Below are positions 21,295-60,733 of a stretch of DNA of 64,000 nt, in pieces. Source of the stretch: Methanosphaerula palustris E1-9c (GTDB lineage: Archaea; Halobacteriota; Methanomicrobia; Methanomicrobiales; Methanospirillaceae); NCBI RefSeq assembly GCF_000021965.1, contig NC_011832.1, forward strand, positions 744,001 to 808,000, in the 5' to 3' direction. The translations under genes were made by a program, and so were the position numbers. The first letter of the stretch is position 1, and each line of letters begins with the position of its first letter. The notes under the pieces were generated by a model that was given only the letters and a program-made list of their open reading frames with translations, did not search any database and was not told the DNA's origin.

Positions 21295-23178
21295 ATGTAT
21301 TATTCACGGCTTATGAAACCAGTATCATTTCTGATTCTCCTGGTTCTGCTCTGTGCCGTTATTCATACTGTCTCTGCTGAAGAGATGTATGTCTTCACCG
21401 GGACATGGGGGACCAACGGCTCCGGAGACGGTCAGTTCAATTATCCCCAGGGAATCGCGGTAGACGGTGCCGGAAACATCTACGTGGCTGATAACGGCAA
21501 CAAACAGGTCCAGAAGTTCACGTCGAGCGGGACGTTTGTTACGGCGTGGGGAACCGCGGGTCCCGAGGACGACAGGTTCAGCGAGCCCAGTGGTATCGCG
21601 GTGGATAGTGAGGGAAATGTGTACGTCACGGACACGGGTAAGTTCCGCGTCCAAAAGTTCACGCCGACCGGCACCCTGATCACGGAGTGGGGGACCGAGG
21701 GCACCGGCGACGGACAGTTCTACTCCCCCAATGCTGTCGCGGTGGACGGCGAGGGCTCCGTCTACGTCACTGATATTCGTTACTCAGGCAGCGGGCCCCG
21801 CATCCAGAAGTTCACGTCGAACGGGACGTTCGTCACGAAGTGGATGACGTATGGCGATGAGGTCATGTATAGCCAGCCGATGGGTATCGCGGCGGACAGT
21901 GCGGGCTCAGTCTATGTCGTCGATCTGAGGAGAGATCGTATCCTGAAGTTCACGTCGACCGGTACCCTGCTTTCGGAGTGGGGGACTACGGGCTCTGGGG
22001 ACGGTCAGTTCAACAACCCGATGGGTATCGCGGTGGACAGCGAGGGTTACGTCTATGTCACGGAACCCTACGCCAACCGGGTCCAGAAGTTCACGCCGAA
22101 CGGGACGTTCGTCACGAATTGGGGGACCGAGGGCTCTGGGAACGGTCAGTTCAACAACCCGAGGGGTATCGCGGTCGACAGTGCGGGCACTGTCTATGTC
22201 GTCGACAGTAATAATCACCGGGTTCAGATATTCGAACAAGGAACGACGCCGTCGCTGACGCCGACCGTACCCCCAACATCCACGCCGACGATGATTGCAA
22301 CACCGACATCTACACCGGATGGGAATGATACACCCATAGCCACGCTGACGACAACCACGTTCACGCCGTCACCGACGGTGATTTCGGTGACGCCACAGAC
22401 GACACCCTATGGTGCCGGCAACACCATCCCCGGGCGGATCGAGGCGGAGAACTTCGATACGAGCGGCACCGGGGCGGCCGACGCATCCTACGCTGACACA
22501 ACCCCCGCGAACGAGGGCGGTGCATACCGCCCGTCCGAGAGTGTCGACATCGAGTATACGGCCGGCATCGGGTCGTACGACGTCGGCTGGATTCGCGCTG
22601 GCGAATACCTGATATACACGGTCCAGGTCGCGAACACGGGTCAATATACGGCGCAATTCAACGCCGCAAACCCTGATGCGTGGAGCAAGGCGGTCGACGT
22701 ATACGTCGACGGTACGAAGTTCGGCACGGTGCCGATCGGCAGTACCGGCTCGTTTACGACCTTTACGACGTTCGCCTTCCCGATCTCGCTTCCTGCCGGC
22801 AGGCACCAGATCAAGCTCGCCTTCCCATCCGATCGCCTGAACCTGGACTACATCGAGTTCGCACAGGGCGACACCCCGGTTACGACCGCCACGACTCCAT
22901 CCCCGACGACGGGGTCGGCGACCTTCATCGCTGTTCCGGCATCGGCTCCTCACGGTTCCGCGTTCATGTTCTCCGTGACCCCGTCGCCTGGCAAGTTCAT
23001 CAGCTCGGCCTGGTGGTCGTTCGACTACCCAGCCCACTGGAACACCTGGAACTCGCGGGAGGTCGACCCGACGTTCTTCTATCCGTGGGCGGGCACCTAC
23101 AGCCCGCATGTGAAACTGACCTACACGGACGGCACGACTGAAGAGGTCACCAGAGGCAATTACATCACTTCTACCTGA
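21295..23178 (+). CDS. secreted six-bladed NHL-repeat protein with CBM6 and PKD-like domains
   Basis: A 627-residue exported protein. A signal peptide (MKPVSFLILLVLLCAVIHTVSA; start at 21295 or the in-frame ATG at 21313) is followed by six NHL repeats at residues about 38-325. Their consensus is WGT.GSGDGQFNNP.GIAVDS.G.VYV....RVQKF, predicting a six-bladed beta-propeller. A Thr/Pro-rich linker runs to about 375. A CBM6-type carbohydrate-binding domain follows (residues about 377-525: GRIEAENFD, YDVGWIRAGEYLIYTV, LDYIEFAQG), and a PKD-like domain ends the protein (541-625, SAWWSFDYP). There is no membrane anchor. It is probably an extracellular adhesive or glycan-binding protein. Higher GC than its upstream neighbours. 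Confidence 0.85.
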   Translation: MYYSRLMKPVSFLILLVLLCAVIHTVSAEEMYVFTGTWGTNGSGDGQFNYPQGIAVDGAGNIYVADNGNKQVQKFTSSGTFVTAWGTAGPEDDRFSEPSGIAVDSEGNVYVTDTGKFRVQKFTPTGTLITEWGTEGTGDGQFYSPNAVAVDGEGSVYVTDIRYSGSGPRIQKFTSNGTFVTKWMTYGDEVMYSQPMGIAADSAGSVYVVDLRRDRILKFTSTGTLLSEWGTTGSGDGQFNNPMGIAVDSEGYVYVTEPYANRVQKFTPNGTFVTNWGTEGSGNGQFNNPRGIAVDSAGTVYVVDSNNHRVQIFEQGTTPSLTPTVPPTSTPTMIATPTSTPDGNDTPIATLTTTTFTPSPTVISVTPQTTPYGAGNTIPGRIEAENFDTSGTGAADASYADTTPANEGGAYRPSESVDIEYTAGIGSYDVGWIRAGEYLIYTVQVANTGQYTAQFNAANPDAWSKAVDVYVDGTKFGTVPIGSTGSFTTFTTFAFPISLPAGRHQIKLAFPSDRLNLDYIEFAQGDTPVTTATTPSPTTGSATFIAVPASAPHGSAFMFSVTPSPGKFISSAWWSFDYPAHWNTWNSREVDPTFFYPWAGTYSPHVKLTYTDGTTEEVTRGNYITST

Positions 23179-28855: not shown

Positions 28856-29132
28856 ATTGGGAAAAAATGGTATAATTGGAGTATTTTTCTCGGCGTTAAC
28901 GGCCCGGATTGATTCTCCTTCCGTTGGAGATCCCTGAAATGTTTAATTAGCATCAATTGGATGCAAGAAGTGACCCGCGGACGTGCGAGGGATTTGGGGT
29001 TTGGGGGGGATTGGGGATCCCCGTCCGCCCCCCGGTATCCGGAATGTCAGAAGCATGGAGAGGACTGTGTTGCCGGACCAGCATGTTCCTGCTCATGCTG
29101 GGTCCGCACTCCATATCCATGCAACTGCTCAT

Positions 29133-30068
29133 TCACTGAGGAATCATCATCTGGAGATCGCCCATGGACTTCTTCATGCGGGATCCCATGCAGCCGGATG
29201 CCATGTCCGGGACCATCTTGCATATGGACTCTCGGAACTGAGCCATGCACCTGGACATCATCATCACACAGTCGCTCATCGGCTTCATCATGGCTGCGTC
29301 CATGCACATCGACTCAGTGCACTTGGAATCCATGCACTTGGAGTTCATGCACATGCGGTCCATGCACTCGGACATCATGATCATGCAGTCGCTCATGGCT
29401 TTCATCATGAGTGTGTCCATGCTTTTTGATTCCATACCCTTGGGCATCATGGTCATGCAGACACACATGGACTTCATCATGGGTACCATCATCTGCATCA
29501 TGCCCATCGGTGCCATCTCCATGAACTGAGTCATGCACTGGCCCATCATCATCATGCAGTCGCACATGGGCTTCATCATGGAAGCATCCATGCACTCTGA
29601 CTCCATGCACTGGCTCATCATCATCATGCAGTCGCACATCGACTTCATCATGGATGAGTCCATGCATTTTGATTCCATGCAGGTGGACATCATGGCCATG
29701 CAGTCCTCCATGCCCTTCATCATGTCCTTGTCCATGGACTTTGCCTCCATGCAGGTGGACATCGTGGCCATGCAGTTCTTCATGGACATTGCCATGGCAT
29801 CGTTCATCGGCATGGTCATGGGCGCCATCATCATGCACTGGGACATGCACCGGTCCATCAGGGTCATGCAGTCGTTCATGGACTTTGCCATGGCGTCGCT
29901 CATCGGCATGTCCTTCATCGAGTTCGAGGTCATGCACTGGGACATGCACTGGGACATAACGGCCTGGAGATCGCAGAGTGCTTTTTCCATGCGCATATCC
30001 ATACAGTTCATCATCGGGCTACAAGTGTTGTTCAGGTCCATTTCGGACTGGTTCATCATTGCTTTCAT
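29133..30068 (-). CDS. methionine/cysteine-rich 24-residue-repeat protein, putative cytoplasmic metal-binding protein
   Basis: A 311-residue protein with about 99 Met and 32 Cys by hand count, some 42% of all residues. The middle is made of 24-residue units with consensus MMK.M.DCM.MMS.CMESKCMD.S, for example starting MMKSMCDCMMMMSQCMES and MMKPMCDCMMMMGQCM. Some units carry insertions. There is no signal peptide or membrane helix, so it should be cytosolic. The ATG at 30068 follows GAGGAAGACCAC; an upstream ATG at 30170 would read through the operator and is unlikely. Thiol and thioether ligands suggest binding of Cu(I) or another soft metal, comparable in idea to Cys-rich four-helix copper storage proteins (Csp/DUF326). 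I recognise no actual family. The opposite strand is also open because of CAT-rich codons; those frames are artefacts. Confidence 0.75.
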   Translation of the reverse strand: MKAMMNQSEMDLNNTCSPMMNCMDMRMEKALCDLQAVMSQCMSQCMTSNSMKDMPMSDAMAKSMNDCMTLMDRCMSQCMMMAPMTMPMNDAMAMSMKNCMATMSTCMEAKSMDKDMMKGMEDCMAMMSTCMESKCMDSSMMKSMCDCMMMMSQCMESECMDASMMKPMCDCMMMMGQCMTQFMEMAPMGMMQMMVPMMKSMCVCMTMMPKGMESKSMDTLMMKAMSDCMIMMSECMDRMCMNSKCMDSKCTESMCMDAAMMKPMSDCVMMMSRCMAQFRESICKMVPDMASGCMGSRMKKSMGDLQMMIPQ

Positions 30069-30081
30069 GTGGTCTTCCTCA

Positions 30082-30098
30082 AACCGAAATTTTCGGTT
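30082..30098 (-). promoter_or_regulatory. perfect inverted repeat, putative operator of the Met/Cys-rich gene
   Basis: AACCGAAA-N-TTTCGGTT is an 8+1+8 perfect palindrome ending 13 bases before the ATG at 30068. A TATA-like TTTATACT (minus strand, about 30121-30128) lies about 25-30 bases upstream, which puts the transcription start at the edge of the palindrome. A repressor bound here would block initiation. Confidence 0.6.
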
Positions 30099-30484
30099 AA
30101 GAAATAGATAAATTACCAGGAGTATAAACGTATCTGCGCGTCCGTTTCGATTTTGAGCAATTATAGGCAAGTATTGCCGGTAGTATAATAATCCTGTAAT
30201 AAAAATTGGGGCCTGCGGAAATGTGGCTTAATTTTTTATTACTTGTGAGCATATTACGGGTAGGAAAATTATGCCGTCCGCGCCTAGTTGGCGGAAAAAG
30301 CGGGAGATCCCCTCGGGTCTCTCCTGCGAACGCTTTAGTCTTCCTGCCCCGCGTGTCTCCCTCAGACTTCCATCCCTCAGCCACAACTCCCGGTTCATCT
30401 CCTCCGCTCATCGGAATCATCACTCCCGAAAAGGTCTACTTGATCGACCTGAAACGATTCTCTCGACTCCTCTTCACCATCTCC
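30099..30484. other. intergenic, promoter of the Met/Cys-rich gene and no other supported gene
   Basis: Contains the TATA-like box for the minus-strand gene. The part from 30250 to 30484 is more GC-rich, with open frames on both strands that lack coding character. Confidence 0.4.
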
Positions 30485-33801: not shown

Positions 33802-35811
33802 TTAATTAAAACTAAACAATGATTCTTCATTCCTAAAAGGGCCCGCTGGGACAAATCCATATTCTTTTAATTTCTCAATTTTATTATGATCTTTGTAATC
33901 TTTTTCAGGAATTGCCCAAGCAAGTAAAAATTTTGGACGTGAACTGGCAACATATGCTAAACGTGCTGATTCACCTTTGGCATTTTTTATGTTAAGCCAG
34001 TCTTCCCAATATCCACTACCTTCTTTTGATGACGAGGAACGATCAGATGAAAACAACAGAATTGCATCAAATTCTTTTCCTTTTGCAGAATGGATTGTTG
34101 ATACTTGGATTGATTTCTCAGAGTTTAATTGCGGTTTATTTGTACCAATTGTATCTATCACCCTCGAATCTTTTTCATTATTAGGAGCGGATTTAATCTT
34201 GGATTTATCAAATCTTGATGAATCTATCCAATCGTATTGTGTTTGATAATTTTCGAGTATTTTAGGAAAAATACTGTTATAATTATTTTTCCAATCTGTC
34301 CATTTTTTTGAAAAATCTGCAATTACATCTGATTTGTTGCAACTTTCTAATACATTTGCTAAAAAAATTCTCCATTGATAATTTTTAATTTCTCTTGGAC
34401 AATGATAATTTCGATAATTAAGATCTTTGTCGAAAAAAAGATTTGCTGCAAGATATTTTCCTATCAAATTTAACGACTCTATTTTCAATCTGATATCCAT
34501 TTGAGACCAGAAATAAATCGCAATTGGGGGGACCTTTGCTTTTGGAATGTTGGATACAACTTGTCCGAGTATTACTTCCTTTCTTGAGTTATTCCTTACT
34601 AAAATTGCAGATTTTTTTACATCATAATTATTTCTCGATAAATAACTTTCAAATAAATTTGATATTTCTGGAATTGTATCTTTTTTATAACTAAAAACTA
34701 AGCAATGGTCTTGTCTGGGTTTATCATCTTCTCCTTTTATATCTTCAGTATTGTTAACAATTTTGCTACAAGTATCTACGATTCTCTGAACACTTCTAAA
34801 ATTTTTTGTTAACAAAAAAACTTTGCTTTCTCTTTTTTGAGTGAGTTGGGAATTTTTTTCAAAATTTACGTTGTTATAATTAAAAATTGATTGATTGATA
34901 TCTCCGACAAAATGAAAAACAGTTCCTTGATTTTCCAATAAATTAAAAATTTTAATTTTTATTGGTGACATATCTTGGTATTCGTCTATTATAATATGAT
35001 TAAATCGACCTACGATTAATTTGCATATCTCTATATTTTCTTTTAATAAATTATAACAAATTATTTCAGTATCCTGATGAGTAAGATATCCAGATTTCCA
35101 AAATTCCTGTTTCATCCGACTCAATTTCTCTACTAATCCTGGGGTTAGGGAGGAATTATTTCTGATTGTATCGGTGGGAATATTTCCAGAAGAGAAATAG
35201 ATCTTATCGCATTCAGGATTCATATAATACTGATTTGCAAAAATTTTGCCACCTTTTTTAAATGTGGGGGAAAATATAGAAAATTTTCGATTTTGTAAAA
35301 AATGAGCCTGGCTGGAATTTTCAATTATTTTGATGCTCCGATCTTCATTATCCCCAGGATAATGGGTAATCAGATGAGCAAATGGGCTTAAAATATACCC
35401 ATATAACCAACTATCAATGGTTCCTATGAAATGGGGATGAGAAATTCCTGATGAGCCATTAAATTGGAGAACTCGCTCGATTATTACATCAACTGCTGCA
35501 TTAGTAAATGTAAGAACTGCAATTCCTCTCGTTTTTTTTTGCCATTTCCCGATCTCATATGCAGTTTTTAAACCAACAACTTCAGTCTTTCCACTTCCTG
35601 GACATGCCTTTAAATAACTGTTTTCATTTAAAGAATGTACGATGAATTCAAGTTGCTCAAGTGTTTTTTCTGCAATCCTACACATTTTATAGTTTTTACA
35701 TGGAGAATCTGAATATCTATGAAGTAAATAACAATCATCATGAGACAAGTGATGATTATAACATAGTATCGATGAAATTTGTTGAAATAATTCTTCTTTT
35801 CTTTTAGACAT
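33802..35811 (-). CDS. gajB: Gabija-type UvrD-like helicase GajB with an extra Cys/His-rich N-terminus
   Basis: A 669-residue superfamily 1 helicase. Motifs are LKACPGSGKTEVV (motif I, residue about 68), AVLTFTNAAV (Ia), IIIDEYQDMSP (II), FHFVGDINQSIF (III), VFLLTKNFRS (IV), STIHSAKGKEFDAILLF (V) and LAYVASSRPKFLLAW (VI). Residues 15-45 contain CYNHHLSHDDCYLLHRY then CKNYKMC, resembling a zinc-binding module not typical of the family. It is longer than usual GajB. Its ATG overlaps the gajA end by eight bases. In Gabija, GajB senses DNA ends and works with the GajA nuclease against phage. AT-rich relative to the chromosome, as expected for transferred defence genes. Confidence 0.85.
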   Translation of the reverse strand: MSKRKEELFQQISSILCYNHHLSHDDCYLLHRYSDSPCKNYKMCRIAEKTLEQLEFIVHSLNENSYLKACPGSGKTEVVGLKTAYEIGKWQKKTRGIAVLTFTNAAVDVIIERVLQFNGSSGISHPHFIGTIDSWLYGYILSPFAHLITHYPGDNEDRSIKIIENSSQAHFLQNRKFSIFSPTFKKGGKIFANQYYMNPECDKIYFSSGNIPTDTIRNNSSLTPGLVEKLSRMKQEFWKSGYLTHQDTEIICYNLLKENIEICKLIVGRFNHIIIDEYQDMSPIKIKIFNLLENQGTVFHFVGDINQSIFNYNNVNFEKNSQLTQKRESKVFLLTKNFRSVQRIVDTCSKIVNNTEDIKGEDDKPRQDHCLVFSYKKDTIPEISNLFESYLSRNNYDVKKSAILVRNNSRKEVILGQVVSNIPKAKVPPIAIYFWSQMDIRLKIESLNLIGKYLAANLFFDKDLNYRNYHCPREIKNYQWRIFLANVLESCNKSDVIADFSKKWTDWKNNYNSIFPKILENYQTQYDWIDSSRFDKSKIKSAPNNEKDSRVIDTIGTNKPQLNSEKSIQVSTIHSAKGKEFDAILLFSSDRSSSSKEGSGYWEDWLNIKNAKGESARLAYVASSRPKFLLAWAIPEKDYKDHNKIEKLKEYGFVPAGPFRNEESLFSFN

Positions 35812-37675
35812 TTTTTATCTCACAAACCCAATTAATCGCGTCTTTGATATATTTAGGAATTTCAAATGATGTACAATCTTTCAATAATAAATCTGCGAGT
35901 TCTTGAGCATATCGTCCCTTTCCGATTTTAGATGAATCGATGCGAAGAAGTAATTTTTGCGCAACTATCTCTTTTGTATCACGGGAAGCGTCTTCCCATT
36001 TGACTTCTAAATAATCAGTGAACTCTTTCCGAATTGGTCCGTTCGTATCTAGACATTTTAAGAATATTTGGATCATAGGAGTAAGATTCCCTCCTTCCAA
36101 TGCCAAGTCATATTCAAAGGTTTTTAAATTTGAAAATATTCGAGAATTCTCAGATTTATTTATACGATTGACCAATTGAAGTATCGGGTTGTTTCCTTCA
36201 ATTGGTTCTAGATGTGTAGAGTTTGAAGGAGGGTCATTATCAGTAATTCCAACGCACCTCAATGGAATTGAAAATGCGGGTTGAGAATCTTCATTAATAT
36301 TACAGAATAGTTGCATGAAATGCTTAAAATTAATTCCGTTAATATTTATCACAGAAATTCCCTGTTCTTCCAGAGTTCCAGGTAATTTTGTCTTATATTC
36401 ACTATTATACTTTTTTATCACTCTCTTTGCTAGTTCTGGAATTAGCATCGCTTCAGCAATCCCTTCAACTAATATTACACCTTTTGCAAAAAAAATAGTT
36501 GATTTGGTTGCGTCAAGCCATCTTGTAAGAAATGCTTTACTTGGAGAAGGAAGTCCACATTTTCTAATGGGTGTGGCAATTGTTTTCCTATCTTTACTGA
36601 ACGATAAATGAATAATGGCGTCAATAGAAACCGCTGAAGCGAGTACAGGAGAGTGAGTTGTAATAATTATTTGAATGTTTGAATTTTCTGTCTCTTTCTG
36701 AAGATACTTCAGTAATTTTATCTGTAATTGAGGATGTAAATGCGCTTCAGGTTCTTCAATAAGTAATATTTTTAAAAATTCTGGTTCATCGGATTCAACT
36801 TCTTTGATAGGTCTTAATTCTGCAAGCACAGTTGCTAGATAAATCAGATTGTTGTATCCTAAACTATTTTCTTCAAGACTTCTATAGTTGAATTCTTGTC
36901 CATTTTGGTTTATTTCTGGAAAGAAAAACAATCTTAGATTTTCAATAATTCTATTAATATTTGTTTCTGAAAATTGTATTCGGGTATCTTGCCCAAAGAC
37001 AGTTCCAATCGCATTTTTAAGACTATTCTTGATCAATTCATTAGCTTTAAAAATGGGTTCATTCTTGTCATTTACAATATCATTATAGAATGAATTCACT
37101 TTTTCTTCAATTTTTAGAGATTTTCCGTCTCGTTTTGCTTTTAAAAATTCTTCTTTATTTAAATTCAATATTAATCGTGCTAGACGGGATCCACGGCCTT
37201 CGCGTAATTTTGCTTCGGCATCTCTCAACGGGGGCAAATAAATACAATTTATCAGTTCAACAAGTTCTTTTTCATATGGATTACTTTGCGATACCCCCCC
37301 CCAAATTTTCCTATTGTATCGTCCTCGATTATTTTGAGTGTCATCAATCACCAATGAAAGCCGAGCCTCATTTTTGTCTTCTCTCCAAGGTAAAAATGCA
37401 ATTTCTTCGAAATCAGATAATTCGTCAAAATGAGCAACAATTTTAATTTTATTTGAAGCAACTGAATCTTTGACGAATGGTCTATGAAAATCCTTCTCAG
37501 AAATCCCTGATCGTCCGTATTCATCTTCTGAAAGTATTAACCGAATTGCATCAATAATCGAACTTTTTCCAACCCCGTTCTCTCCAACTAGAACATTTAG
37601 ACCCGAAGAAAAACAAATCTCAAAATTTTCATTAAAATTTTTATAACCCGAAATGGAGATTTTTTCTAAAAACAT
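35804..37675 (-). CDS. gajA: Gabija-type OLD-family ATPase/TOPRIM nuclease GajA
   Basis: A 623-residue protein. The ATP-binding part has Walker A LVGENGVGKSSIIDAIRL (residue about 32) and a later LIEEPEAHLHPQLQIKLL (Walker B and D-loop region, about residue 310), followed by the switch THSPVLAS. The C-terminal TOPRIM domain shows ILVEGIAEAMLIP (catalytic glutamate) and VGITDNDPPS (paired aspartates). The start at 37675 follows GAGGAG four bases upstream; a TTG at 37687 is in frame but less likely. In Gabija, GajA is a sequence-specific nicking endonuclease controlled by nucleotide levels. It is paired and overlapping with gajB. Confidence 0.88.
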   Translation of the reverse strand: MFLEKISISGYKNFNENFEICFSSGLNVLVGENGVGKSSIIDAIRLILSEDEYGRSGISEKDFHRPFVKDSVASNKIKIVAHFDELSDFEEIAFLPWREDKNEARLSLVIDDTQNNRGRYNRKIWGGVSQSNPYEKELVELINCIYLPPLRDAEAKLREGRGSRLARLILNLNKEEFLKAKRDGKSLKIEEKVNSFYNDIVNDKNEPIFKANELIKNSLKNAIGTVFGQDTRIQFSETNINRIIENLRLFFFPEINQNGQEFNYRSLEENSLGYNNLIYLATVLAELRPIKEVESDEPEFLKILLIEEPEAHLHPQLQIKLLKYLQKETENSNIQIIITTHSPVLASAVSIDAIIHLSFSKDRKTIATPIRKCGLPSPSKAFLTRWLDATKSTIFFAKGVILVEGIAEAMLIPELAKRVIKKYNSEYKTKLPGTLEEQGISVININGINFKHFMQLFCNINEDSQPAFSIPLRCVGITDNDPPSNSTHLEPIEGNNPILQLVNRINKSENSRIFSNLKTFEYDLALEGGNLTPMIQIFLKCLDTNGPIRKEFTDYLEVKWEDASRDTKEIVAQKLLLRIDSSKIGKGRYAQELADLLLKDCTSFEIPKYIKDAINWVCEIKNV

Positions 37676-38086
37676 AAAACTCCTCAATTAATATTAATAA
37701 TTGAATTTATGGCATTTGCGTTTTTGTTTTTTAAATTGTTATTTTTTAAGACATCTTATACCAATTCTTGAAGATGGGTGCGGTATCTGCGCCAGGATCC
37801 TCTGCTAACCCGGCGGGATCCGGTCGAGAACAGGTCTGCAGCACTAACGTTGGAACAGCCGGCGCCGTCCCACTGCCGCATTGGAGATGGAGTGCGGAAA
37901 GGAGACTAGATCTGGCGATTCAAGTTCTGTGTGTTCATCTTATGTTTTGAAAGATAGAAACCACAACCTCCTTGGAATAGACCCGGCTCTGACTTTTGAT
38001 GCGCTCACCTTTATCGTCTCTCATACCTTTGTGGCTGATCCAGATGATCATACAACCACCCACAAAACACTCATCCCCCGCCGGCA
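37676..38086. other. junction between the defence genes and GC-rich chromosome
   Basis: The left part (to about 37755) is very AT-rich and holds the gajA promoter. The right part abruptly becomes GC-rich with broken coding-like pieces (for example around 37770-37915) that I could not assign. The change probably marks the edge of the inserted defence island. Confidence 0.45.
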
Positions 38087-58882: not shown

Positions 58883-60733
58883 GTGGTGAGTGAAACACGG
58901 CAGCTCGTGGTCCTCCTGGCGATCACCCTTCTCATCGGGTGTGCTGCCCTCGGGATCACGACATATCTCCCTCAGATGACCGAGGGAAACCTGGTTGTCG
59001 ATCAGTACAGTGCAGTCTACTCTCCCAACGGGACACTCGTCGAGGAGTACACCTACCAGGTCAAAACATCGGGTTCCTACCGGATGCTCTATCGTGACTT
59101 TGACGATCAGTTGACCACTGTTCTGACCAATACGTCACATATTCAGTTCGTGGGGATGAAGGGGCCGGCCGGGTTGACCGGGTATGTCAGGGACGCCTCC
59201 GGCACGGTGACTCTGTATGATCCGGATACCGGGGCAGCGATCTCGTCGGCTCCCGGAAGTGGACTGATCGCTTCGCTTGCAGAGAAGAACGAGGTCGGGA
59301 TCTTCAACCCCCAGTACTTTTCGGCCGGCACCTACACCGTACAGTTTGTCTATTCGGTAATGCCGCCGGTGGAGTATGATGCATCGGCGGTGCATATCAA
59401 CCTGAAACTCGCCCGCCTGCACATCCCATACCGGAACGTGGCGATCACGCTCCCTTCGGACCAGGTCCAGCATGTCTATGCCTACCCGCCAGGACTCAAG
59501 GAGTCGCAGTCCGGATCGACGATCAATCTGGTCGGTTCGGCGGGCAAGGACGAGACGATCGCCGTCGAACTCCTGCTGAATCGGGACGCCCTCTCGACAG
59601 TGACTGGGATCCCATCGGTGGTGGAAGATGTATCTGGAAAGGCTGCGAGTGCGAGTTTCTGGTACAACGTCCCGTACACCCTCTCGCTCGTGCTGAAGGT
59701 AGTGGGTGGAGCGATGGTGCTCCTGATGCCGCTGCTGTTGCTGCTGATTTACCGCAGGTTCGGGCGGGAGAAGGTCTTCACCGTCCCTGAATACCTGAGC
59801 ACAACGCCGAACAATACGATCAAGCCCTGGGCGGTGAACCTGCTCTTCAACAAGAACGCCGGTTCGTTCGATCAGGACGGATTCTATGCGACCCTGCTCG
59901 ACCTCCACCGGAGAAAGATGGTGCATATCACCGAGCATCCGGATGAGAAGGCCAGCGGCGACGGTGGGGTGAAGATCGAGGTGCTGCAGAGCACTGCAGA
60001 TGACAACTACGAACAGCGGGTGCTCAATTACTTGAATTTTGTGGGGGTCGACGGCGTGGTCGAGACCGGCCGAATCGCCACGATGGCTGAGCAGGCGAAG
60101 AAGGACACGAACCTGGCTGGGACCGTGGTAAAGTTCCAGACCGAGCTGACCAGCATCACCTCCTATGCCGATGCCAGGACCTTGAACCGGTATGTCGCAG
60201 ACGGAAAGGTACATGTTCTCCCGCTGGCCCTGGTGGCCGCGGTGCTGGCTGCAGTGATCGTCGCCGTGATGGTCCTGCTCCCGCAGGGGCAGTCGCTGAT
60301 GGTGATCCCCCTCTTTCTCTGGCTGGTCGTGCTGGCGCAGGCCGGCATTGCACTGGCCACGCCGGCCACTCTCTTTGGGACCTGGAAGGCGGATACCTAC
60401 AAGGAGAAACTTGAATGGGATGCCTTCCGGCACTTCCTCTCAGATCTTGCGATGATCAAGCAGTACTCGCCTGCTGATCTCTCGATGTGGGGCGAGTGGC
60501 TGGTCTACGGGACGGCCCTTGGTGTCGGCGACCGTGTCGCGGCGGCGATGAAGGATCTGAAGATCTCGATCCCCAACGACGATATCGCTCCGTTCCATCT
60601 GAATATGGCCTTTGCACCGATCATCTTCTTCGCACCCCCCAGCCAGGGTTCTGGCGGAGGATTCGGCGGTTTTGGTGGCGGTGGCTTCGGCGGTGGTGGC
60701 GGATTCGGCGGCGGTGGCGCTGGAGGCCGATGA
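58883..60733 (+). CDS. DUF2207 membrane protein
   Basis: A 616-residue protein: signal/anchor helix (QLVVLLAITLLIGCAALGIT), a large exported beta-rich domain (residues about 35-260), and a helix VVGGAMVLLMPLLLLLIYRR. A cytoplasmic segment with winged-helix character (FDQDGFYATLLDLHRRKMV) follows, then two more helices and a Gly/Phe-rich tail (GGGFGGFGGGGF). This is the standard DUF2207 architecture, usually found with LemA as here. GTG start at 58883 or 58886. Confidence 0.92.
   Translation: MVSETRQLVVLLAITLLIGCAALGITTYLPQMTEGNLVVDQYSAVYSPNGTLVEEYTYQVKTSGSYRMLYRDFDDQLTTVLTNTSHIQFVGMKGPAGLTGYVRDASGTVTLYDPDTGAAISSAPGSGLIASLAEKNEVGIFNPQYFSAGTYTVQFVYSVMPPVEYDASAVHINLKLARLHIPYRNVAITLPSDQVQHVYAYPPGLKESQSGSTINLVGSAGKDETIAVELLLNRDALSTVTGIPSVVEDVSGKAASASFWYNVPYTLSLVLKVVGGAMVLLMPLLLLLIYRRFGREKVFTVPEYLSTTPNNTIKPWAVNLLFNKNAGSFDQDGFYATLLDLHRRKMVHITEHPDEKASGDGGVKIEVLQSTADDNYEQRVLNYLNFVGVDGVVETGRIATMAEQAKKDTNLAGTVVKFQTELTSITSYADARTLNRYVADGKVHVLPLALVAAVLAAVIVAVMVLLPQGQSLMVIPLFLWLVVLAQAGIALATPATLFGTWKADTYKEKLEWDAFRHFLSDLAMIKQYSPADLSMWGEWLVYGTALGVGDRVAAAMKDLKISIPNDDIAPFHLNMAFAPIIFFAPPSQGSGGGFGGFGGGGFGGGGGFGGGGAGGR

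Follow-up and report, generated by a model that had tools for sequence, protein, structure and literature searches.

An open reading frame of Methanosphaerula palustris E1-9c, encoding a 311-residue protein of which 42% is sulfur-bearing (Met and Cys), is a true protein-coding gene under purifying selection. We identified it in a window of 64,000 nucleotides taken from the closed genome of this methanogen (2,922,917 bp). The small archaeal family to which it belongs is new and has a distinctive 24-residue repeat. As to function, we consider it possible, though somewhat short of probable, that the protein is soluble and works in the cytosol as a sponge of high capacity, whose sulfur ligands would take up soft metals of the class of Cu(I), Ag(I) and Hg(II). 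The features of the gene and its flanking regions are collected in Table 1.

Table 1. Features of the Met/Cys repeat gene and its surroundings. Positions are those of the window, unless a contig of the 2.54-Mb genome G003 is given.
Feature	Position	Strand	Basis or remark
Met/Cys-rich 24-residue-repeat protein, 311 residues, TGA stop	29133..30068	-	Translation; homologues in three other genomes
N-terminal cap repeat MEKALCDLQAVMSQCMSQCMTSNS with CXXXC, residues 27-50	29919..29990	-	Best-conserved stretch in all four homologues
Array core, contiguous 24-residue units from residues 116, 140 and 164	29508..29723	-	TRF, repeat analysis
Shine-Dalgarno region GAGGAAG	30074..30080	-	Read from the sequence
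Probable 5'-leader hairpin AACCGAAAATTTCGGTT, -30 to -14, directly 5' of the Shine-Dalgarno region	30082..30098	-	
TATA-like TTTATAC, about 60 bp upstream of the start	30122..30128	-	Aligned with TTTATATT of the 74% homologue
Conserved palindrome GGCAATACTTGCC, about -110, upstream of the TATA-like element; candidate operator	30166..30178	-	
Putative relic C-terminal tail beyond the TGA	29106..29135	-	PQ*MSSCMDMEC aligns with PQCMTQCTDVQC of the MAG homologues
Stable 3' hairpin GGACCCAGCATG...CATGCTGGTCC, just downstream of the stop	29075..29105	-	
Copies of the 13-mer GGCAAAATTTGCC in G003	L054:9464, L055:9330, L048:1501		

Composition and repeat architecture

The original prediction had counted about 99 Met and 32 Cys by hand, and translation gives exactly these numbers (31.8% and 10.3%), with His, Trp and Tyr at zero each. 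For comparison, 11 sampled ORFs of the window contain on average 2.8% Met and 0.9% Cys. The 24-residue period that had been read from the sequence is borne out by the autocorrelations of Met, Cys and Lys, all of which peak at lag 24, and TRF found a 72-bp array at 29532-29724. The protein comprises nine whole repeat units, beginning at residues 27, 60, 92, 116, 140, 164, 197, 221 and 260, and one cut last unit. The spacing is strictly 24 residues only within 92-116-140-164 and 197-221, and the remaining steps measure 33, 32, 33 and 39 residues. As had also been proposed, insertions occur in some units: inserts of 8-15 residues, e.g., MAPMTMPMN, interrupt the array in several places.

A position-weight search over the four homologues yielded 30 units with the consensus MMKSM[CS]D[CL]MMMMSxCMxx[CK]CMDAS. 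Cys occupies position 15 in 27 of the 30 units, with Gly in one and His, another metal ligand, in two; the His cases rest on one aligned unit and are probably a single event. Position 8 alternates between Cys and Leu, and Met is at times replaced by Ile, Leu or Val. The CXXXC motif (C15-C19) occurs in 10 of the 30 units and always in the N-terminal cap. The first unit (MEKALCDLQAVMSQCMSQCM) and the last unit (MKKALCDLQMMIPQCMTQC) are more ordinary in composition than the core units, as is usual for capping repeats. Inspection by eye revealed no export signal in the 311-residue protein, in agreement with the earlier reading.

The amphipathic helices suggested by the original prediction are supported, as the protein is predicted to be helical with one amphipathic helix per repeat. 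The AlphaFold2 models computed from a four-row alignment have pLDDT values of 37 and 34, yield no usable tertiary fold and serve for helix boundaries at most; both place one helix, mostly of 19-29 residues, on each repeat and a turn at the KCMD segment. Along the repeat, Met and Cys are arranged on one face of a helix (helical moment at 100 degrees, P=0.007), with the polar residues on the opposite side. The stripe M1-M5-C8-M12-C15 corresponds to the spacing i, i+4, i+7, i+11, i+14. This stripe and the helical periodicity are the main physical argument for a putative sulfur-lined helical core.

Two further repeats lie in the window, namely a 141-bp tandem repeat present in three copies (69% match) at 21803-22228 within the ORF 21295-23178, and a Gly-rich low-complexity repeat with an 18-24 bp period at 60647-60719, where the ORF 58883-60733 nears its end.

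Conservation and genomic distribution

The expectation of homologues with a conserved repeat in related genomes was confirmed in three other Methanoregulaceae, where the family is found at full length with 74, 59 and 50% identity. The closest homologue consists of 312 residues, is 74% identical over its full length and resides in a genome of 2,542,943 bp (G003, here the 2.54-Mb genome), and two Methanoregula MAGs (L004 and L005) encode versions of 247 and 217 residues. Met accounts for 31.8, 33.0, 24.3 and 25.3% of the four homologues. Selection acts on the frame that had been proposed, as dN/dS ranges from 0.15 to 0.34 in all six pairs (Nei-Gojobori), and codon differences among the homologues are commonest at position 3 and fewest at position 2. 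Between the two closest homologues, 93 of 99 Met and 31 of 32 Cys are kept, which amounts to 124/131 for Met and Cys together versus 105/178 for the other residues (Fisher P=7e-14). Met and Cys are nowhere exchanged for each other between these two proteins, and they are exchanged twice in the comparisons with MAG L005. All four homologues agree at 12 Cys and 37 Met columns of the alignment.

The gene is rare, being carried by 4 of 108 Methanoregulaceae genomes and 4 of 232 genomes of the order. Among 393 genomes sampled from the phylum, we found only two already known members and two chance matches. These two weak matches, L025 and L026 (E 0.008-0.009), were rejected upon inspection, one being a different low-complexity repeat and the other lacking a matching Met/Cys ORF. 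A homologue scan of the genome collection yielded the two Methanoregula MAGs and nothing else, and the viral, phage and plasmid collections contained no relative in a search limited in part by the low-complexity masking of BLAST.

The four loci are unrelated, and the neighborhoods differ in each genome. In MAG L005, a DUF2099 gene flanks it on one side and a Cys/Met PLP enzyme on the other, and it abuts a cluster for Cys/Met metabolism (CysRS, cysteine synthase and Cys/Met PLP enzymes); in the genome of M. palustris, the DUF2099 gene and the Cys/Met enzyme adjoin with no Met/Cys gene between them. The copy in MAG L004 is preceded by a MacB-type ABC ATPase and lies next to a sulfonate/nitrate-type ABC cluster; the 2.54-Mb genome has the same cluster, rearranged, with the Met/Cys gene absent there. 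The region directly upstream in this MAG (L004:5347-7709) encodes a DUF4418 membrane protein with a Met-containing loop, an FtsX permease and the MacB-type ATPase. One genome has a convergent ArsR-type regulator with a CVC motif as the nearest downstream neighbor, the only such locus.

The rare, patchy occurrence and the unrelated loci suggest that the gene may be horizontally mobile between methanogens. The two long versions differ by a dS of 0.64 at 74% amino-acid identity, and the pair of Cu-ATPases from the same two genomes by a dS of 1.29 at 59% identity; the dS of MsrA is also above 0.64. The lower dS of the Met/Cys gene than of these yardsticks would suit horizontal transfer, with the caveats of yardstick paralogy and of a codon usage bound by Met.

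Elsewhere in the window, 4 kb from the Met/Cys gene, PADLOC detected a complete Gabija anti-phage system at 33802-37687 on the minus strand (GajA 828 bits, GajB 631 bits), located on a strikingly AT-rich island with 28-37% GC compared with about 50-60% around it.

Leader, upstream palindromes and 3' end

The ribosome-binding site claimed for the start at 30068 is present as the Shine-Dalgarno sequence GAGGAAGACCACATG, and all four homologous genes have one at similar spacing. The claim of a palindromic promoter element did not hold: AACCGAAAATTTCGGTT is not at a promoter position, lying about 25-45 bp downstream of the TATA-like element. Both MAG homologues have a hairpin at the same place with an unrelated sequence (GGCAGGA...TCCTGCC), and the 74% homologue has hardly any. 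Because AACCGAAAATTTCGGTT is located between TATA and start, and because the MAG hairpins share its place with a different sequence, it is probably a 5'-leader hairpin rather than an operator. Unlike AACCGAAAATTTCGGTT, the palindrome GGCAATACTTGCC is conserved with the 74% homologue, and the two long versions have GGCAANANTTGCC in common upstream of TATA.

The exact 13-mer GGCAAAATTTGCC occurs three times in the 2.54-Mb genome, each time outside genes: one copy precedes the Met/Cys gene, a second precedes the sulfonate/nitrate-type ABC operon, and the third stands between the genes for rubredoxin and a DsrE-like protein. We rejected GGCAAAATTTGCC as a family-wide regulon, since all 11 occurrences in other Methanoregulaceae lie within coding sequence and the total of 14 is not far above the control of 6-7. 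A site near the Cys/Met enzyme of the M. palustris genome (L053:6987), which may fall in a methyltransferase coding region, was not counted. The three sites of the 2.54-Mb genome give a small-number hint of a link to sulfur/redox functions.

At the 3' end, the in-frame TGA stands at a Cys codon (TGT/TGC) of the MAG homologues, and the family profile match runs through one TGA of the gene. Folding of the region around the 3' hairpin gave -43.7 kcal/mol (z -4.5). The local signature of Sec is present, with a UGA aligned to Cys, homology continuing downstream and a hairpin downstream; Sec use and Sec machinery are not known from Methanomicrobiales. The simplest reading of the alignment, far likelier than Sec, is that the TGA is probably a nonsense change by which a short Cys-rich tail was lost.

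Relation to known proteins and possible function

Pfam, NCBIfam, PADLOC and PDB contain no match to the Met/Cys protein, in line with the unknown family that had been claimed; the PDB searches by sequence and by profile returned only chance matches (E 0.46 and 0.64). It had also been set apart from Csp/DUF326, rightly so: PF03860 gave no match in any of the four homologues at E<=10, the DUF326 profile is absent from the 12 Methanoregulaceae genomes tested, all four carriers included, and hhalign of the family profile against four archaeal DUF326 proteins of the same phylum resulted in a probability of 0 with one column aligned. The MXKDX pentapeptide-repeat proteins, an NCBIfam family, gave no match for any homologue at E<=10. 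A literature search turned up no account of the family. The novelty claimed for the system was overstated, because proteins of such Met/Cys composition are already known, MRP1/FeNos being on record (PMC3514235); the family is new, its kind is not.

By composition, the nearest known kind is the Met-rich proteins of that study, with MRP1 closest. All four homologues contain >20% Met over >50 residues, the threshold of the class (PMC3514235). MRP1 (FeNos, from Nostoc PCC 73102), which is likened here by composition only, contains 33% Met plus 12% Cys and is expressed in soluble form in E. coli (PMC3514235), but comprises only about 124 residues as computed from its Met count; MRP2-MRP6 differ in being Cys-poor (PMC3514235). 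Csp3/DUF326 (PF03860) would resemble the methanogen protein in being cytosolic, signal-less and helical with interior sulfur ligands, CXXXC motifs and occasional Met ligands (PMC5171941; PMC10155185). However, Csp3 folds into a short bundle of four helices and contains 18-19 Cys but few Met, whereas the methanogen protein has a Met:Cys ratio of 3:1, a 24-residue tandem repeat and up to 311 residues. The CXXXC-on-helix trait of Csp is found in it in 10/30 units, on predicted helices. The bacterial metallothioneins SmtA and MymT are small cytosolic sulfur-ligand metal buffers like the proposed sponge, but are Cys-based, short and non-helical, and the methanogen protein has no Pfam match. PcoE and SilE are periplasmic, Met-rich and bind soft metals at multiple sites, but are exported and His-rich, whereas the methanogen homologues have 0-2 His and no visible export signal.

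As we infer its fold, cytosolic location, metal binding and metal identity, the protein would be soluble and cytosolic, with each 24-residue repeat forming one of some ten amphipathic helices and with hardly any residues other than Met and Cys on their non-polar side. The metal ions would be anchored by pairs of Cys (C8...C15 in core repeats, CXXXC in cap repeats), and the surrounding thioethers would provide weaker ligands and a flexible non-polar core. The protein would act like cytosolic Csp3 or metallothionein, with kinship to neither. The CXXXC motif forms Cu(I) sites within the helices of Csp3 (PMC5171941), and one Csp3 can use Met ligands too (PMC10155185). We put soft-metal binding first because the Cys at position 15 is near-fixed, CXXXC occurs as in Csp3, DUF326 is absent, and Cu-type P1B ATPases are present in 12 of 12 Methanoregulaceae tested. 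The purifying selection, the preferential retention of Met and Cys with their invariant columns, the Met/Cys face opposite the polar residues and the single helix per repeat in the low-confidence models also speak for it. Against the sponge, none of the four loci has a dedicated Cu/Ag/Hg gene adjacent, the convergent ArsR-type regulator of one genome being the sole hint, and the weak evidence from promoter and neighbors favors a tie to sulfur/redox genes. The Cys/Leu alternation at position 8 and the replacement of Met by Ile, Leu or Val suggest that some of the sulfur may serve simply for hydrophobic packing, and in a reducing cytosol Met binds Cu(I) weakly in comparison with thiolate. It seems rather doubtful that the protein is the first of an archaeal class of Met-dominated, Cys-anchored helical-repeat cytosolic metal sponges in wetland methanogens, a way of storing or detoxifying soft metals that would be independent of Csp and metallothionein, mobile between methanogens, and under a sulfur/redox operator (GGCAANANTTGCC).

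The main rival to the metal sponge, in our judgment unlikely, is an oxidant buffer, whose Met and Cys would be sacrificially oxidized upon entry of O2 or peroxide and re-reduced by MsrA/thioredoxin, as is proposed in general for Met-rich proteins. The dominance of Met over Cys agrees with such a role, as do the recurrence of GGCAAAATTTGCC between the rubredoxin and the DsrE-like gene and the behavior of the similarly composed Nostoc MRP1, which is oxidized by H2O2 and fully re-reduced by MsrA and MsrB in vitro (PMC3514235). MsrA is found in 11 of the 12 Methanoregulaceae tested, including 3 of the 4 carriers, but it is near-universal in the family regardless of carriage and lacks discriminating power; moreover, the regulon evidence comprises three sites only, and a sacrificial sponge would not need a position-specific separation of Cys and Met. 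We hold it for quite improbable that the protein is a sulfur reserve, in which Met and Cys would be stored against periods when sulfur is scarce, as in the Met-rich seed storage proteins. Sulfur in 42% of the residues would fit, as would the Cys/Met-metabolism cluster abutting the gene in MAG L005 and the sulfonate/nitrate-type ABC cluster beside it in MAG L004, the latter bearing the promoter palindrome in the genome of the 74% homologue. However, the neighborhoods vary by genome and the gene looks inserted, and the strict 24-residue pattern, the invariant CXXXC and the non-exchange of Cys and Met exceed the needs of storage.

Scarcely as much weight goes to a methionine-bristle binder of client proteins, in the manner of the SRP54 M domain and calmodulin, in which flexible Met-lined helices would bind exposed hydrophobic segments and sulfur chemistry would be secondary. 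The amphipathic helices with four-Met runs and the partial exchange of Met, Ile, Leu and Val at core positions 5, 11 and 12 would suit this role, but Cys, which hydrophobic binding does not need, is kept better than Met (31/32) and fills 12 invariant columns. It is very improbable that the ORF is non-functional, i.e., a non-coding element or a simple-sequence repeat of which several frames are open by chance. Both strands of the repeat do carry long ORFs, and the archaeal C/D-box RNA sR14 matches the repeat weakly (E 0.007-0.03, far below the gathering score). However, homologues exist in four genomes, dN/dS is 0.15-0.34 with the codon-position pattern of coding sequence, and the start region with its Shine-Dalgarno sequence is conserved; we rejected a chance or repeat artifact because of the homologues and the codon-level selection. 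The sR14 candidates at 29600-29655, 29529-29583 and 29230-29295 (minus strand), where ATGATGA resembles a C box and CTGA-like words occur too, were likewise rejected.

Cytosolic metal stores are expected to be Cys-based, and Met-rich sites are regarded as extracytoplasmic. A 311-residue protein with 42% Met and Cys in strict wetland anaerobes would test thioethers as a bulk intracellular buffer of metals or oxidants. If the oxidant buffer were true, the protein would be a natural counterpart to Met-rich proteins, which have hitherto served mainly as laboratory sensors. The preferred reading as a soft-metal sponge could bear on the handling of copper, silver or mercury by wetland methanogens.
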